Shown here one piece after another: positions 26,287 to 35,497 of a stretch of 45,245 nucleotides of DNA (the first letter of the stretch is position 1; every line of letters starts with the position of its first letter). Both the position numbers and the translations under genes were made by a program. Source of the stretch: a virus; IMG/VR virus record IMGVR_UViG_3300012929_000028, positions 1 through 45,245 of that record. One strand, given 5' to 3'. The notes under the pieces were generated by a model. It was given only the letters and a program-made list of their open reading frames with translations. It did no database searches and had not been told where the DNA came from.

Positions 26287-27801
26287 ATGCCACAAATTGA
26301 TCCAGTAACACGAGCATTTTGGACAAAGGTTGGCTACCACCCTCACCCTAAGCAGCTCCTGTACCACGCATCTCAAGCTCGATTTAGGATTCCCACGTGT
26401 GGGCGTAGGTTCGGGAAATCAACTATGGCGGGACGGGACGTGTCCCCAAGGTATCTGCTGAAGCCCAATAAAATGGTCTGGATTGTTGGACCTACGTATG
26501 ACCTTGCTGAGAAGGAGTTCCGGGTTATTTGGAACGACCTTATCGTTGGGCAACAACTGGGAAAGGATAAACGTGTCCGCAAAGCCTACTCCAAGCGGTC
26601 AGGGGACATGTTCATCCAGTTCCCTTGGGGTACCAGGGTGGAGTGCCGTTCAGCGGAACATCCTGAGTATCTTGTTGGTGAGGCTCTTGATCACGTCATC
26701 ATGTCTGAAGCAGCTAAGCACAAGCGTGAGACCTGGGAGCGATATATACGTCCGGCTCTTGCTGACCGCCGAGGTGGAGCTGATTTCCCTACTACTCCAG
26801 AAGGTTTCAACTGGCTACACGACCTCTGGCAGCTTGGTCGTCGTGACAAATTCAAGGGTATTTACGAAAGCTGGCGCTTCCCCGCTTGGGAGAATACAGC
26901 CGTATATCCACAGGGACGCCATGACCCTGAAATCGAGCTCCTGTATGAGACGATGGAGCTAGAGTGGTTTGATCAGGAAGTCGGAGCCGACTTCGCCAGC
27001 TTCGTAGGCAAGATCTTTCCTGAGTGGGATGAAGCACGATCTGTTCTCAGCGGTGATTACAAGTTTATCCCTGCCTGGCCGAATTACATTGCCTGGGACT
27101 GGGGGTATACCAATCCACTGGCAGCAGTGGAGTTTCAGGTAAGCCCTCAGGACGAGATTTTCGTTTGGCGTGTCCACTACAAGAAGTTCAAGACCATACC
27201 CGACCACGTCAACCTTATGTTCGCCCGTGACCAACCGCCTAACTATCATGTCGACATGATGTTCGGGGACCCAGCAGACCCCGAAGCTGCTGTCATGGTG
27301 TCTCGAGAGTTCACTAAACACGGTCTACCGACCCAATGTTGGGCGCCTAAGGAACTGAAGTCTGAATACACTTGGCGTGACGGCGTAGACTTTATGTCGT
27401 CCTTTATGCACCCAGTAAAGCGTGGTGAAGACAGGTGGGGAGCTCCAATCGAGTTCCCGCGATACTGGGTTGGCTACGATTGTAAGGACCACATCAGGGA
27501 GCTAAACAACTACCGCTCAAAGGAGCCAGTAAAGGGACAGAATGTTCCTGAACTAGGCAACAAGGTCGAAGACCACACGATCGACGCTGTGCGGTATGCC
27601 TTGATCTGCTTGTTCAAGATGGGTGCTCATAACTCTCACCTGACAGATGGAATGGTTAACGCCGCCCCTGTGGAGCTCTCAGCCGCGCAGCGCCAAGAAG
27701 CACGTGCGGCCGATGGACAAAGTGCTTGGGTGAACTTGATGGGTGGAGACAACGGTGGAGGGTTCTTCCAGCATAGAGGGGAGAACGAGGTTGTCTTCTG
27801 A
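26287..27801 (+). CDS. terL: Terminase large subunit (packaging ATPase-nuclease)
   Basis: The 504-residue protein packages DNA through the portal. ATPase: G39-R-R-F-G-K44-S45-T (Walker A) and H-V-I-M-S-E141 (Walker B plus catalytic Glu; the usual Asp is replaced by Ser). RNase H-like nuclease: A-W-D271-W-G-Y-T-N, M-F-G-D328-P-A and D-H-T-I-D-A-V-R-Y near residue 425 supply the metal-binding acids. GGGAGGTG lies somewhat far upstream of ATG 26287. Length and motif order are normal for the family. Confidence 0.92.
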   Translation: MPQIDPVTRAFWTKVGYHPHPKQLLYHASQARFRIPTCGRRFGKSTMAGRDVSPRYLLKPNKMVWIVGPTYDLAEKEFRVIWNDLIVGQQLGKDKRVRKAYSKRSGDMFIQFPWGTRVECRSAEHPEYLVGEALDHVIMSEAAKHKRETWERYIRPALADRRGGADFPTTPEGFNWLHDLWQLGRRDKFKGIYESWRFPAWENTAVYPQGRHDPEIELLYETMELEWFDQEVGADFASFVGKIFPEWDEARSVLSGDYKFIPAWPNYIAWDWGYTNPLAAVEFQVSPQDEIFVWRVHYKKFKTIPDHVNLMFARDQPPNYHVDMMFGDPADPEAAVMVSREFTKHGLPTQCWAPKELKSEYTWRDGVDFMSSFMHPVKRGEDRWGAPIEFPRYWVGYDCKDHIRELNNYRSKEPVKGQNVPELGNKVEDHTIDAVRYALICLFKMGAHNSHLTDGMVNAAPVELSAAQRQEARAADGQSAWVNLMGGDNGGGFFQHRGENEVVF

Positions 27802-27952
27802 CCACAACTATGGTTGGCATTGGGGTTGGTCTTGGAATCCTAATCACATCTACATGCGTGGTTGGGGCCTTATCTTCGGCGTCGTAGGGCTCTTCCTCGT
27901 CCTTGGTGTTTTCAAGTACATTGAGTGGAAGGTGAAACGAAATGGAATTTAG
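27791..27952 (+). CDS. Small membrane protein between terminase and portal
   Basis: TTG start at 27791 with GGGGAG seven bases upstream, overlapping the terL stop by 11 bp, gives 53 residues. An aromatic start (Y-G-W-H-W-G-W-S-W-N-P-N-H) precedes one membrane helix (G-L-I-F-G-V-V-G-L-F-L-V-L-G-V) and a basic tail. It overlaps the portal start by 11 bp. A holin is conceivable but position is unusual for one. Confidence 0.6.
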   Translation: MSSDHNYGWHWGWSWNPNHIYMRGWGLIFGVVGLFLVLGVFKYIEWKVKRNGI

Positions 27953-29888
27953 AGACCTTCCGCGTGTCAACTTGCAAGACCTTCTTGATGGTGGCTATGA
28001 GCCCGTTATCGCACATCAGGGTGACGATGCCTTTATCGTTATGGCGCCTCCTGGTGGAAGTTCTGATCGTATTCTCGACGAAGTTGCCGAAGCTAACGAG
28101 AAGGTAGATACAACTTACACAACGGTTGCTAACCAGGATGAAGTTGTACGGCTTCACGAAGAAAGGAGGATGGCAGAAGAAGGTGGTTATCAACTCGATA
28201 CTATGCGCTCTCGAACGGGTGTGCAACGCCGTGGTCGACCTCCTCAAAGCTCTCCGGGCACTATTGTTCCAACTGGCGCGAGCCACTTTCCCGAACCTCC
28301 TACGACCAGAGATGGCTTTGGACAGGTCACGGGTGAGATCAGACCTCACCAGCGAGTTGACCTTGCACAAGGACAGGGTGTTGGTGCAGCAGCTCCCGTT
28401 TCGCTTCTTGGCGCTGAACTTGGCTCCTCGGTACCGTCTCCTTTCACTTCCTGGGTTAGACGTGAGTACAACAAGGACCTATTTGGTCTCAAGGGACTTC
28501 GGATTTACGACAAGATGCGTAAGTCCGATGGTACCGTTCGCGGTACCATGCGCCTCGCGAAGACTCCTGTTCTTGGCGGGCAATGGTCGATAAAGGCAGC
28601 ATCCTCTTCTGACAAGGATCAGAAGATAGCCGACTTTGTCTGGATGAACCTGACGCAGTGGATGTCGACGTCATGGCCTCAGTTCTTGACCGAAGCGCTT
28701 CTGATGCTCGACTTCGGTTACTACATGTTCGAGAAGGTGTACGCTAAAGGCGAGCAGGTGACTAACGACCCTGCAGCTAAGGGCAAGATCGTTTGGAAGA
28801 AGATGGCGCCACGACATCCTATGGATGTACGTGAGTGGTTCTTCGACATGGAGGGTGGTCCACTCTCCGTAGATATGTGGGCAGCTCCTGCACAGCTTCC
28901 TGGCTTTCAGGGCGGTGTGTTTCAGGGTTTTGGTCAGTACGTTAACATTCCGATTAACAAGATGCTAGTCTTCAGCTTCGACAAGGAAGCTGGCAACATC
29001 GAGGGAATTAGCCTTCTGCGTTCCGCGTACAAGCACTGGTACTATAAGGACAACCTGTACAAGATCGACGCGATTCAGAAGGAGCGTCATGGTATTGGCG
29101 TGCCTGTCATCCAGCTACCGGTTGGTTATAGCCCTCAAGACCTTGCTCTTGCAGATGCGCTGGGAAGAAACCTTCGGACTAACGACCGAGCGCATGTTGT
29201 ACTGCCGCCGAACTGGATGCTATCTTTCGCAGAGCTCAGAGGCCAGCCGGTTGACTGTATCAGGTCTATCGAGCACCATGATACGTCGATCGAGAAGCAG
29301 ATTCTAGGTCAGTTCCTCGAGACGAAGCAGAAGACTGACGAGCAGGACCAAACACTGTTCTTGAAGGCGACGCGGTTCACTGCTGAGATTGCATGCGACG
29401 TGGTTAACTCGTATGGTATACCGCAGCTCGTCGATATGAACTGGGCCGGTGTCAGGTATCCGAAGCTAGTTGTCAAGCGTATCGGTGAGCAGGAAGACTG
29501 GCGTACAGCTTCTTTCACGCTTCGTAACTACGTAGGCGCTGGCATTATCGTTCCTGACCAGCCGCTCGAAGACCATCTGCGTGAAGAGATGGGCCTTCCA
29601 CCTTCTGATCCTACGACTGCTCGTCTTGTCAATACGAAGTTCAACCAGCAGATTGCTAACCCGCCACCTCTCGAGCTACCTGGCACTCCTGAGGAAATGA
29701 TGGCGGCTCTCAAGGACGGTTCCATTACTATGGAACAGCTCCAGCAGATGACGAACCAGCAACAGCCTCAACCTGGACAGCAGCAGGGAGCTCAGGCAGG
29801 TACTCCCAGGCAGACGCCTCCTGGTACTGTAGCACCTTCCACAGGGCGAGGGGATAGCTCGGGCAGTTCCGGTCGTAGGGGGCAGTAG
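27942..29888 (+). CDS. Portal protein (DUF935 / Mu gp29 type)
   Basis: The 648-residue protein has a long, disordered N-terminal part up to about 170. The portal core then starts S-W-V-R-R-E-Y-N-K-D-L-F and continues D-F-G-Y-Y-M-F-E-K-V-Y, M-L-V-F-S-F-D-K-E-A-G-N and Y-Y-K-D-N-L-Y-K-I-D, the pattern of DUF935 portals. The C-terminus is Gln/Pro/Gly-rich (about 595-648). It forms the dodecameric channel for DNA at the capsid vertex. Position after terL agrees. Confidence 0.88.
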   Translation: MEFRDLPRVNLQDLLDGGYEPVIAHQGDDAFIVMAPPGGSSDRILDEVAEANEKVDTTYTTVANQDEVVRLHEERRMAEEGGYQLDTMRSRTGVQRRGRPPQSSPGTIVPTGASHFPEPPTTRDGFGQVTGEIRPHQRVDLAQGQGVGAAAPVSLLGAELGSSVPSPFTSWVRREYNKDLFGLKGLRIYDKMRKSDGTVRGTMRLAKTPVLGGQWSIKAASSSDKDQKIADFVWMNLTQWMSTSWPQFLTEALLMLDFGYYMFEKVYAKGEQVTNDPAAKGKIVWKKMAPRHPMDVREWFFDMEGGPLSVDMWAAPAQLPGFQGGVFQGFGQYVNIPINKMLVFSFDKEAGNIEGISLLRSAYKHWYYKDNLYKIDAIQKERHGIGVPVIQLPVGYSPQDLALADALGRNLRTNDRAHVVLPPNWMLSFAELRGQPVDCIRSIEHHDTSIEKQILGQFLETKQKTDEQDQTLFLKATRFTAEIACDVVNSYGIPQLVDMNWAGVRYPKLVVKRIGEQEDWRTASFTLRNYVGAGIIVPDQPLEDHLREEMGLPPSDPTTARLVNTKFNQQIANPPPLELPGTPEEMMAALKDGSITMEQLQQMTNQQQPQPGQQQGAQAGTPRQTPPGTVAPSTGRGDSSGSSGRRGQ

Positions 29889-31096: not shown

Positions 31097-32410
31097 GTGT
31101 CTATTCTCGGTAGAGGTACACCGAATAGGCCTATCGTTATCCGTAACGACCTGGCGGACCCGCCTGTTCTAACAACTGCTCCTCCTGTAGTTGAGACGGG
31201 TCCGCCAGCGTCGATCTGGTTCAGCACACATCCTGTACTACAGACTCGTAGCTCATTTGAAGACTCCAGCGACTTCAACTCACATTCACAAACTACAGTA
31301 ATAACGCGTCAGCCGGATACCAAATATAATGGCGGATTCAGTTACAGCACTCGAAACACTCTTCAAGATCCACCTGTTCTGACTACGCCTGGTCCTGTAG
31401 TCATATCTGGTTCGTCGAGTCTGTACTTCAACAAGAGCTTTAACCAGGTATCTGTAGCGCCCTTCATAGCGCCATCTACTACAGGTCCTACAACTATTCC
31501 ACAAGTGCTAACTGCTCCTCCAGCTGCGACATGGTTTGATGTTGGCTCACCCACTACTGTACGAAACACACTGCAAGATCCTCCGGTACTTACTACTCCA
31601 CAACCTACAGTTATATCAGGTTCATCCAACCTATACTTCAGCAAGAACTTCAATCAGGCCTTTGCAGCACCTTCTAGCGCCCCTGTGGCTCCGGGAGCTC
31701 CTACCCCCGGTCCGATCATAGCAGGTGTAAGAAACGTTGGACAATGGTTTGATATCAAACCTGCTCAGGTTATTGATAACGTACAGCTAGGCATACCTAC
31801 ACAGGCTTCACCAGATCCAATCGTTATATCTGGTCCTAGGTCGCTACTGTATCAGCCAACTCGAACGATTATTATTGACAATGTCCAATTGGGAACGACC
31901 AGTAGTGTTGTCCGTCCTGTCTGCTTTAGCGGGACTGTTGCTGATGAAAATTCCTTTACAGGAATTTTTATTGATGATCTAGTTCTTAGCGGTAACGTTG
32001 TAGGCCACCTCATTTTGAGTGGCGCTATAGTTGATGAGAATACCTTTACAGGAACTATGAAGGGGTGGTGTATGCAAGAGGTAGATATTACGGCTGGTGA
32101 GTTTAACGACGAGTCGTGGGACTTCACAATCAACGCTGGTAGCCCTCCTAGCCCGTTCAATATTACGGGTCTGACACTTGAGATGTACTTCAAGACAGCT
32201 GCGGGTGTATCTGATACCGATCCATCGACTGTCAAGATAACCACTCCAACCGATATCACTATTACTAGTGGTCCTGCTGGTCAGGGGACAGCTTCACTAC
32301 CTAGTACCAATTTGCAGAACAACAACCTGGGATTCTATAGGCTCGATGTACTGCAAAGTAGTAAACGTCACACCGCACTCTATGGAAAGGTAGGCATTAC
32401 ACTACTGTAA
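31097..32410 (+). CDS. Repeat-containing structural protein with BppU-like C-terminal domain
   Basis: GTG start 31097 (AGGAG upstream), 437 residues. The first 250 residues contain tandem units built on D-P-P-V-L-T-T-x-x-P-V-V-I-S-G-S-S-x-L-Y-F (three clear and one or two weaker copies). S-G-T-V-A-D-E-N-S-F-T-G and its near copy form another pair at about 278-315. The last 110 residues (G-L-T-L-E-M-Y-F-K-T-A-A-G to Y-G-K-V-G-I-T-L-L) resemble the N-terminal domain of baseplate upper proteins. Probably a fibrous virion surface protein; role inferred. Confidence 0.65.
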   Translation: MSILGRGTPNRPIVIRNDLADPPVLTTAPPVVETGPPASIWFSTHPVLQTRSSFEDSSDFNSHSQTTVITRQPDTKYNGGFSYSTRNTLQDPPVLTTPGPVVISGSSSLYFNKSFNQVSVAPFIAPSTTGPTTIPQVLTAPPAATWFDVGSPTTVRNTLQDPPVLTTPQPTVISGSSNLYFSKNFNQAFAAPSSAPVAPGAPTPGPIIAGVRNVGQWFDIKPAQVIDNVQLGIPTQASPDPIVISGPRSLLYQPTRTIIIDNVQLGTTSSVVRPVCFSGTVADENSFTGIFIDDLVLSGNVVGHLILSGAIVDENTFTGTMKGWCMQEVDITAGEFNDESWDFTINAGSPPSPFNITGLTLEMYFKTAAGVSDTDPSTVKITTPTDITITSGPAGQGTASLPSTNLQNNNLGFYRLDVLQSSKRHTALYGKVGITLL

Positions 32411-32465: not shown

Positions 32466-32484
32466 CAGCATAGAGGAGTGCGTG

Positions 32485-32760
32485 ATGTCCGTATACTCAC
32501 CAAGTGGTTCCGGAAACGTTCACGTCGATAGGGTCATGGGAGGGAGCAAGCGCGTGGCAGCACCCAAGGCCAGAAAGCCTATGGCTAAGAAGGGTATGGG
32601 CTTCCCAGCAGCTGCAAAGGCTGCTGGAGGTGGGAAGAAGGGCGCTGCTATCGTAGCTGCCGCTTCTCGAAAGGCCTCTCCTGCAGCGAAGGCAGCTAAT
32701 CCTAACCTCAAGAAGGTCGCAATGCCTAAGGCTGCTGCGAAGAAGGGTTCGGCTAAGTGA
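32485..32760 (+). CDS. Lys/Ala-rich basic protein with a capsid-protein-like N-terminus
   Basis: The 91-residue protein has two parts. Residues 1-15 (M-S-V-Y-S-P-S-G-S-G-N-V-H-V-D) match the major capsid protein start (M-A-V-Y-A-P-T-G-S-G-N-V-H-I-D). The rest is a histone H1-like tail with many Lys, Ala and Pro (K-K-G-M-G-F-P-A-A-A-K, A-A-A-K-K-G). ATG 32485 follows GAGGAG; a GTG one codon earlier is possible. It is the first gene after promoter 32436. Binding of packaged or intracellular DNA, with the N-terminus docking to capsid, is inferred. Confidence 0.75.
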   Translation: MSVYSPSGSGNVHVDRVMGGSKRVAAPKARKPMAKKGMGFPAAAKAAGGGKKGAAIVAAASRKASPAAKAANPNLKKVAMPKAAAKKGSAK

Positions 32761-33884
32761 ACAAGTACGGCTTCTGGGTCGATCTCGGTAAACGGCGGCT
32801 CTTCGACGTAGGCAGCTCTGGCTGGCTTCATGCCTTGCCAATCGGAACGTATGAGCATCCGGTTTACGGTCAGATGCAGTTCACGCCTGAGAAGGTTGCA
32901 GCCTTCGCTGCTAGCGTTAACAACAAGATTCGTGGTATCGATCCCGATATCGACTACGAGCATAAGGACAAGACCACCAAGGCCGCAGGTTGGGTCAAGG
33001 CGGCAGAAGCTCGTGCCGATGGCTTGCACCTGAAGGTCGATTGGACCAAGGCAGCTGCAGATGCCATCAAGGCCGGTGAGTATCGATACTTCAGTCCTGA
33101 GTTCGACGATGAGTGGACTGACGCAAGTGGTGTCAAGCACACCAACGTTCTGTTCGGTGGAGCACTGACCAACAGGCCTTACCTGAAGGACCTGCTTCCC
33201 GTTAACCTGTCTGAAATCACTACACAGCAGCCACAGGGAGGCACATTGGATCCCAAGCAACTGCGTGCGGCACTGAAGTTGAGTGAGACGGCAACCGATG
33301 ACGAAGTCATGGCTGCGATCGCAAAGCTCAATCAGCCAAGCGCAGTCCCGACTCCGACACCTGCTCCTACGCAGCTCACGGAAGACGCTCTCGCCAAGAT
33401 GCTCACTGACCTTCCTGCCTTCAAGGCGCTTCAGGAAGGTCTTGTCGGAGCTCAGAAGGCCTTGTCAGACTCGGAGAAGGCACGTCAGCTTTCGGAGACC
33501 AAGCATCGTCTTGGCGCGCTGCAGGCTACTCAAGGCGGACGGAAGTATGTTCTCCCCCCTTCGATGATCGACGCTGTAGCAGAAGGATCTACGCTTGCAG
33601 ATCCTACGGCTGCAACGCTCAAGTTCGTCGAGGGCCTCGAAGCCTTCATGAAGACGGGTATGGTCGAGCTAGGCGAGCGAGGTACTGCTCGAACTGGTAA
33701 CCTCGGTGACAAGAACGCGACGCAGCAGCTTAGCGAGCAGGTCGTTGCTCGGCAGACGAGTCACTTCCAGGCAACTGGTAAGACGCTGTCCTACCGCGAT
33801 GCCATCGCAGCTACAGTTCGTGACAATCCCGACCTGTACACCGAGTATCGTCAGGACTCTTACGCTGGGAAGGAGGAAAGCTAA
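32757..33884 (+). CDS. Head maturation protease/scaffold (Mu gpI type)
   Basis: The 375-residue product starts at GTG 32757 and overlaps the previous stop (GTGA). The N-terminal 150 residues follow the Mu I-protein protease pattern: G-I-D-P-D-I-D-Y-E-H-K, K-A-A-G-W-V-K, E-Y-R-Y-F-S-P-E-F and G-G-A-L-T-N-R-P. The C-terminal 200 residues are Ala/Gln/Pro-rich and helical, typical of a scaffold that is cut away during head maturation. It sits just before decoration and capsid genes, as expected. Confidence 0.87.
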   Translation: MNKYGFWVDLGKRRLFDVGSSGWLHALPIGTYEHPVYGQMQFTPEKVAAFAASVNNKIRGIDPDIDYEHKDKTTKAAGWVKAAEARADGLHLKVDWTKAAADAIKAGEYRYFSPEFDDEWTDASGVKHTNVLFGGALTNRPYLKDLLPVNLSEITTQQPQGGTLDPKQLRAALKLSETATDDEVMAAIAKLNQPSAVPTPTPAPTQLTEDALAKMLTDLPAFKALQEGLVGAQKALSDSEKARQLSETKHRLGALQATQGGRKYVLPPSMIDAVAEGSTLADPTAATLKFVEGLEAFMKTGMVELGERGTARTGNLGDKNATQQLSEQVVARQTSHFQATGKTLSYRDAIAATVRDNPDLYTEYRQDSYAGKEES

Positions 33885-34363
33885 TGCCAGGTATGGACTA
33901 TGGCAGGTCGAAGGCCTATTTGGCTACTGGCTCTGTTGCATACAAGCGTGGCTATGTGGTTAAGGCTACTACAGGTACGACGCTAGTTCCTGCGCAGTGC
34001 GGCATTTTGGTCGCTACCACCGATGCCGCCGTTCCACCTCTAGGTGTATGCATGGAGGACCTGGACGCTGCCAAGGTAACTACGGGTAAGGCCTTCATCA
34101 ACATCGCACTCGAAGGTAACGTCAAGGTCATCTGGGATGGTTCTGGTACAACGCCTTCTCCAGGTCTGTACGTAGGTCTGTCAGGTGGTTCGGCAGGTGT
34201 CAAGGACGGACAGGTCACTGTCGTTGCTGCTACTCCCGGCGCTGCGACCTTCGTGATCGGTCGTGTTCTTAGCATTATCGGCAACTCAATCGGACAAGCA
34301 GCCACCGCAGGTGACTACATGGACATCCAGCTACTGCCGGGCGAGCGGATGTTCGTTAGCTAA
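33884..34363 (+). CDS. Probable head decoration protein
   Basis: A 159-residue beta-rich protein with many Gly/Val/Thr (G-I-L-V-A-T-T-D-A-A-V-P-P-L-G-V, G-L-Y-V-G-L-S-G-G-S-A-G-V). The repeated beta-turn pattern and its place between protease and major capsid protein resemble DUF2190-type capsid decoration proteins. Shares its first base with the protease stop. Confidence 0.72.
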   Translation: MPGMDYGRSKAYLATGSVAYKRGYVVKATTGTTLVPAQCGILVATTDAAVPPLGVCMEDLDAAKVTTGKAFINIALEGNVKVIWDGSGTTPSPGLYVGLSGGSAGVKDGQVTVVAATPGAATFVIGRVLSIIGNSIGQAATAGDYMDIQLLPGERMFVS

Positions 34364-34378
34364 GAGAGGAGGATCCTA

Positions 34379-35497
34379 ATGGCTGTCTACGCACCAACTG
34401 GTTCGGGCAACGTCCACATCGATGTTGTCCTTACTCAGATCTCGGTCGCATGGCCAAATGAGGGGCTGGTCGGGAACTTCCTCTTTCCAGGAGTTCCGGT
34501 CCAGAAGCAGTCGGACAAGTACTACATCTTCCAGGGACGTGAAGGTTGGTACCCTGATCTGGATGACCTGCGTGCACCTGGTACTGAGGCTAACGAAGTT
34601 CCTGGCCTCACTGTCAGCCTCGGTAGCTATTACGCTCAGGAACACGCACTCCAGATCGCAATCACGGACGAAGAACGTCAGAACGCCGACTCACCCCTGA
34701 GTCCTGATGTCGATGGCGCCGAGATGCTCGCGTCCAGGATCGCACTGGGCAAGGAGTACCGGATTTACAATCTGGTCACTACCGCTGCAAACTACAACAC
34801 AGCACTGACGGCCGTTCCTGGTACGACTACAGGGTACGGTCCACAGTGGGACAACTACGTGAACTCGACGCCAGTTCGGGACATCCGTGTCGCTTGTCGA
34901 GCAATGCACAATATCTCGTTCATGACGCCCAATCAGGTAGTGATTCCCTACAAGGTGATGTCCGCCTTGGAGGACACACAGGACTTCATCGAGCGGATCA
35001 AGTACTCCGAGCGTGCTATCCTGACGCCTGATCTGGTCGCTACGCTTCTTAACCTGAGCAACGTCGTTGTTCCTGGTTTCGGTATCGCGACGAACAACCC
35101 TGGTCAAACTCTGGCACTCCAGTATCTCTGGAACATCGAGGTCCTGCTCGCCTATAGTCCGCCAAGGCCTGGTCTCAAGGTACCTGCCTTCGCCTACCAG
35201 TTCACCTGGGGCTTCGGTGGTGGAGGTGCAGGCGGTCTCGGCTTCGGATCGGGCGCCTTCTCCGGACAGGGCATTCCTCACGGTCCCACCAATACGATTC
35301 TGAACCCGACGAACATGCAGGGTACAGACAACGCACTCGGTGGCGGTATCGTGGACCGCTGGCGTGAGGAGCGTAGGGCTTCCGACGTCATCAGATTCCG
35401 TCAGCGGTACGACCTGGAGCTGATTGGGCTCGACGCCAACAACAAGTCGATCTGCGGCTTCCTCTTCACATCCGTTCTCAGCTCGAGCTTCGTGTAA
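34379..35497 (+). CDS. Major capsid protein
   Basis: The 372-residue protein has a very strong ribosome site (AGAGGAGGATCCTA). Its features fit HK97-fold capsid proteins of the Mu gpT-like type: an N-terminal arm, Y-Y-I-F-Q-G-R-E-G-W-Y, A-I-T-D-E-E-R-Q-N-A-D, V-I-P-Y-K-V-M-S-A-L-E-D, and a Gly-rich loop (F-G-G-G-G-A-G-G-L-G-F-G-S-G) at about 277-290. Position after protease and decoration genes agrees. Highest-expressed gene expected. Confidence 0.9.
   Translation: MAVYAPTGSGNVHIDVVLTQISVAWPNEGLVGNFLFPGVPVQKQSDKYYIFQGREGWYPDLDDLRAPGTEANEVPGLTVSLGSYYAQEHALQIAITDEERQNADSPLSPDVDGAEMLASRIALGKEYRIYNLVTTAANYNTALTAVPGTTTGYGPQWDNYVNSTPVRDIRVACRAMHNISFMTPNQVVIPYKVMSALEDTQDFIERIKYSERAILTPDLVATLLNLSNVVVPGFGIATNNPGQTLALQYLWNIEVLLAYSPPRPGLKVPAFAYQFTWGFGGGGAGGLGFGSGAFSGQGIPHGPTNTILNPTNMQGTDNALGGGIVDRWREERRASDVIRFRQRYDLELIGLDANNKSICGFLFTSVLSSSFV

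Follow-up and report, generated by a model that had tools for sequence, protein, structure and literature searches.

The N-terminal arm of a phage major capsid protein recurs on a lysine/alanine-rich protein of the same head operon and probably acts as a head-incorporation tag

In the virus genome analysed here, residues 1-15 of a small Lys/Ala-rich protein probably copy the distal N-arm of the phage's major capsid protein (MCP) and serve as a tag for incorporation into the head. A head-docking tag is the simplest reading because the arm is limited to the shell protein, a basic protein whose composition suits DNA binding, and the protease, always stands at their extreme N-terminus and is the shell's own contact element.

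The shared arm in the head operon

The window, i.e. the whole stretch of DNA that was analysed, is a 45-kb IMG/VR virus record (45,245 nt). Its head operon contains the following features:

26287-27801, terminase (phrog_2)
27942-29888, Mu-type portal (Portal_Mu match)
32472-32478, plus strand, AGAGGAG Shine-Dalgarno of the basic-protein gene (from the sequence)
32485-32760, plus strand, Lys/Ala-rich basic protein of 91 aa with MCP-type N-terminal arm (orthologues in about 20 soil-phage contigs)
32485-32529, plus strand, shared N-terminal arm MSVYSPSGSGNVHVD, residues 1-15 of the basic protein (MCP HMM E 2.8e-4)
32590-32718, plus strand, KGMGF...NPNLKKV mini-domain, residues 36-78 of the basic protein (optional in other lineages; also occurs unarmed)
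32757-33884, plus strand, Mu-type head maturation protease (PF10123, phrog_328)
33884-34363, plus strand, 159-aa protein at the usual site of a head decoration protein (assigned by position only)
34379-35497, plus strand, MCP with HK97 fold (phrog_1005, AlphaFold2 model)
34379-34423, plus strand, MCP N-arm tip MAVYAPTGSGNVHID (model residue 15 aligned with HK97 residue 117)

Three uncharacterised proteins are encoded between the portal and the basic protein, while connector, tape measure and tail genes come after the MCP. The basic-protein gene starts with ATG at 32485 behind a ribosome-binding site of its own, and its last 4 nt (GTGA) overlap with the protease gene, which starts at 32757. An earlier note, made from the sequence alone, had placed a head protease between the basic-protein and MCP genes, and the enzyme encoded there is indeed a Mu I-type protease (PF10123, E 8e-29, 101.6 bits against a gathering cut-off of 25.2). 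The 159-aa protein had no family match in Pfam and PHROG profile searches. Just before the basic-protein gene, a 437-aa protein (31097-32410) contains internal repeats (DPPVLTTPxPxVISGSSxLYFxKxFNQ) and a weak C-terminal match to phrog_1084.

The basic protein begins with MSVYSPSGSGNVHVDRV and the MCP with MAVYAPTGSGNVHIDVV. Residues 1-15 share 11 identities (12 of 17 with V17 included), which agrees with the count of about 11 in the earlier note, and both reading frames lie where it had put them. When the N-termini from 632 candidate starts across the window were compared all against all, the top BLOSUM62 score (61) fell to this pair, followed by pairs from spurious ORFs (46 and 42), and a six-frame scan found the arm motif nowhere else in the window. 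Likewise, an HMM built from 122 MCPs, with no basic protein included, matched only the MCP (3.3e-153) and the basic protein (2.8e-4) among 839 window ORFs, the next E-value being 5. The presence of a capsid-type N-terminal arm on the basic protein, as first proposed from the letters of the DNA, is thus well founded.

Carriers of the arm among relatives

Relatives were taken from IMG/VR as MCP relatives, basic-protein relatives and exact matches to the arm pattern. The fetched loci contained 186 distinct arm-bearing ORFs, comprising 148 MCPs, 31 Lys/Ala-rich basic proteins and 7 Mu-type head proteases; no other kind of protein among these 186 carried the arm, which always formed the extreme N-terminus. 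The fused architecture, for which a search in other phages had been suggested, therefore recurs on 31 basic proteins and additionally on seven proteases. A genome has at most one extra arm, either on the basic protein or on the protease and never on both. The arm pattern occurred once or twice per record in 50 long contigs and never more often (0 for a reversed-pattern control); two copies were present in 18 of these contigs, and in G026 and G048 the second arm lies in an MCP variant missed by the pattern. The MCP was the only armed protein in 24 of 44 pattern-matched contigs, a pattern-based count from contigs that may be incomplete, and by this count the tag is dispensable in many relatives.

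All window-clade contigs in which the upstream region is covered encode an armed basic protein at the same place, except for one sister branch (L310/L432, L473, L023). Armed basic proteins are also found in other clades (L093, L199, L232-L234), and in L264, L341 and L365/L424 the armed basic gene lies 6-8 kb upstream of the MCP, ahead of the terminase. A confinement of the arm to the window clade was rejected given these armed basic genes elsewhere. The armed basic proteins have in common the arm, usually xx[IM]xGG next to it, and a Lys/Ala-rich body; the KGMGF...NPNLKKV mini-domain is present in 25 of the 31 and missing from the Lys/Ala tail of the other six. In the best tree of MCPs, from which the arm was left out, armed status changed by gain, loss or transfer at least five times. 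The arm is portable, occurring on basic proteins with or without mini-domain, at two genome positions, and on seven proteases. A tblastn search with the basic protein gave no match in cultured phages, and the fetched stretches of six cultured MCP relatives contained no second protein with their MCP N-terminus. Our partial coverage of the literature yielded no published report of an MCP arm common to another head protein.

The armed proteases belong to five MCP lineages of one clade (L036, L038, L063, L212/L177, L422), are 442-453 residues long and match PF10123 (39-51 bits in L036, L038, L177 and L063, cut-off 25.2). In L036, the arm is missing from the small KGMGF protein at the usual place and is found on the protease encoded directly downstream. 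The protease arms probably go back to two or more events of copying or conversion, because the protease of L177 copies about 25 MCP residues (YSPSGSGNVHVDQVLPGVSVGWPN) whereas the L036-type arms end in ISGG, as in basic proteins. Between arm and protease domain, the armed proteases carry an insertion (PYEIRMxxGRHCVYKK...GCHDTH...ALYA; L036:2239, L177:2189, L422:2430).

Position of the arm in the shell and possible docking

The MCP matches phrog_1005 over residues 9-366 (8.5e-57). Its AlphaFold2 model from a deep alignment reached a pLDDT of 83.5, with moderate values of about 61-65 at the arm tip (an earlier model from 18 sequences with a pLDDT of 41 was set aside), and matched its nearest solved relative 3bjq with a Z of 23.4 and HK97 (1ohg) with 16.1, so that the predicted structure clearly points to an HK97 fold. 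Mature HK97 starts near residue 104, and residue 15 of the model aligned with HK97 residue 117; the 15-residue arm therefore corresponds to the distal N-arm. Within it, H13 is one of four residues invariant in 122 MCPs, and V12, D15, P6 and G8 are nearly so.

N-arms of this kind make contacts in several phage heads. In JBD30, two N-arm hooks touch across capsomers at each pseudo-two-fold axis (PMC11445458). The N-arms of SPP1 also meet across capsomers, paired antiparallel, and its scaffold binds the MCP N-terminus in the procapsid; the scaffold of P22 likewise binds the N-arm (PMC6813328, PMC9965877). During assembly, the basic protein would offer its arm peptide to whatever receives the MCP N-arms; candidate receivers are the partner N-arm at two-fold and quasi-two-fold capsomer contacts, a groove next to the E-loop or spine helix, and the procapsid scaffold. 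The protein would be co-assembled into the head and its Lys/Ala-rich body left inside, where it may contact packaged DNA. In the sister lineage, the same tag would be placed on the protease, the other protein needed inside the procapsid. Docking to the capsid, one of the functions suggested in the earlier note, is the best supported one and is strengthened by the sister-lineage protease carrying the same arm, although we infer docking, location inside the head and DNA contact.

The other suggestion was a common targeting or cleavage signal, of which targeting by docking is favoured. An arm that marks the MCP, the basic protein and, in one lineage, the protease as substrates to be recognised and cut by the Mu-type head protease is unlikely, even though the three kinds of carriers are the usual substrates of head proteases and the protease gene sits between the basic-protein and MCP genes. 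In T4, gp21 trims shell and internal proteins in such a way. However, judging from the model, the arm aligns with the N-arm that is retained in mature HK97 capsids and not with the removed pro-domain, and JBD30, which has a prohead protease, has its MCP modelled from residue 2 in the mature head (PMC11445458). Moreover, VHxD/LTNIS is kept in MCPs of cultured relatives in which the gene upstream of the MCP has no Mu-type protease match, and most genomes with protease and MCP arm have no second armed protein.

An armed protein might alternatively tune shell geometry as competitor, spacer or plug at MCP N-arm sites, e.g. at the portal vertex. This would agree with the limit of one armed partner per genome and with JBD30, where the N-arms bend aside at the portal and take a special conformation at the portal vertex (PMC11445458), but it leaves the basic tail in one case and the protease in the other without explanation and seems improbable.

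Selection on the arm and its origin

Across 16 window-clade proteins, conservation within the basic protein is highest in the arm (93% amino acid identity, dN 0.085, pS 0.80), compared with a dN of 0.43 in the linker and 0.16-0.21 in the domain. The dN of the orthologues is far below dS, and the silent sites of the arm are saturated (dS), so its conservation reflects selection on the peptide. The two genes are similar at the DNA level, as noticed before (36 of the first 48 nt are identical), but codons at identical arm residues agree no more often within one genome (40%) than between genomes (41%), and the DNA similarity therefore reflects only the peptide. A shared regulatory nucleic-acid element at both gene starts, with the peptide similarity as by-product, would be in line with a similarity that begins at the start codon in both genes; it is highly implausible because amino acids are kept while silent positions are saturated, and on these grounds any DNA- or RNA-level explanation was rejected. 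Equally far-fetched is a non-functional relic of a recent partial duplication: the similarity is limited to a short N-terminal stretch, yet the arm is old, is the part of the basic protein conserved best and appears at several separate places on the MCP tree.

The earlier proposal of a partial gene duplication stands, and the saturated silent sites indicate that this duplication is old. Copying from MCP to partner is supported as the natural direction because VHxD..LT..S is deeply conserved in MCPs, including those of relatives without an armed partner.

Arms matched within their own genome better than under shuffled matching (P = 0.02). An N at arm position 5 of the partner was present in nine of eleven genomes whose MCP has this N vs 0 of 19 others, and an E after GSG is common to MCP and protease arms in L036, L038, L063 and L422, genomes with this E in both arms being located at two places on the tree. 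With tree structure respected, the covariation was not significant (of the three independent contrasts, a number too small for a test, 2-3 agree), and a joint change of MCP and partner arms is suggestive only. As a tentative extension of the docking tag, the tip of the MCP N-arm may be a self-derived, portable head-entry code that is placed on a DNA-binding protein or a protease, with homotypic arm-arm pairing keeping the arms matched within a genome.

Comparison with known head-entry systems

The selection of internal proteins and proteases by phage heads is known in detail for only a few systems. In T4, the capsid-targeting sequence (CTS) is a propeptide that is associated with the scaffold core and cut off by gp21, and the 10 N-terminal residues of IPIII are enough to direct it to the head (PMC9026906). 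The arm resembles the CTS of IPI-IPIII, which brings proteins into the head, in being a short N-terminal peptide common to several head proteins, some of them small; as with the CTS, its carriers are unrelated head proteins (MCP, basic protein and protease). Unlike the CTS, the tag described here reproduces the N-arm of the MCP itself and gives no sign of removal. The basic protein had no PHROG, Pfam or PDB sequence match that would bear on a possible homology to T4 IP proteins. Encapsulin cargo-loading peptides are similar in that a short peptide on the cargo directs entry into an HK97-fold shell. They are usually C-terminal and are not known to be copied from a shell segment. The genes described here lie in the head operon of a tailed phage, together with those for terminase, portal, protease and tail.

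Heads of the Mu/JBD30 type are another point of reference: the window has a Mu-type protease (PF10123) and a Portal_Mu match, and the N-arm hooks of JBD30 pair between capsomers, whereas the MCP of the window belongs to phrog_1005 with 3bjq as nearest solved relative. A second protein with the MCP arm is not described in the consulted passages on JBD30. If true, a shell-derived tag would give head entry a simple rule, namely imitation of the arm, provide a sequence signature for internal proteins of uncultured phages and suggest a peptide with which proteins could be loaded into HK97-fold shells.

The basic body and its genomic slot

The tail of the basic protein resembles histone H1-like Lys/Ala tails in amino acid composition, and to this extent its initial description as H1-like holds. 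However, the basic protein of the window has no histone or head family match in Pfam, PHROG and NCBIfam, no Pfam match at E up to 1, linker histone H1 and bacterial histone-like families included, and nothing relevant turned up when PDB sequences were searched with the basic family. Unlike histone H1, most armed basic proteins contain the conserved mini-domain.

This mini-domain also occurs alone as an unarmed protein of 60-80 aa in unrelated freshwater-phage contexts and in a Jatrophihabitans MAG (L099:6046-6231, L104, L117, L140, L103, L161). In L432 and L473, which belong to the sister branch of the window clade, it forms the C-terminus of an unarmed basic protein of 213-225 aa encoded about 2.3 kb ahead of the MCP. 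By profile comparison, two of its members weakly resemble the C-terminal region of phrog_53 head maturation proteases (E 0.01-0.02). The slot ahead of the protease has the appearance of a swap site: depending on the lineage (L034, L041, L424, L455), it holds different small basic modules, e.g. YPIPDxxHARNALARVAQxGTPxEKxxVRAAV. Small basic proteins that occupy this slot but otherwise differ share a recurrent short motif, S[VA]RQR[RS], possibly a further common signal (L026, L034, L093, L201, L271, L424, L455).
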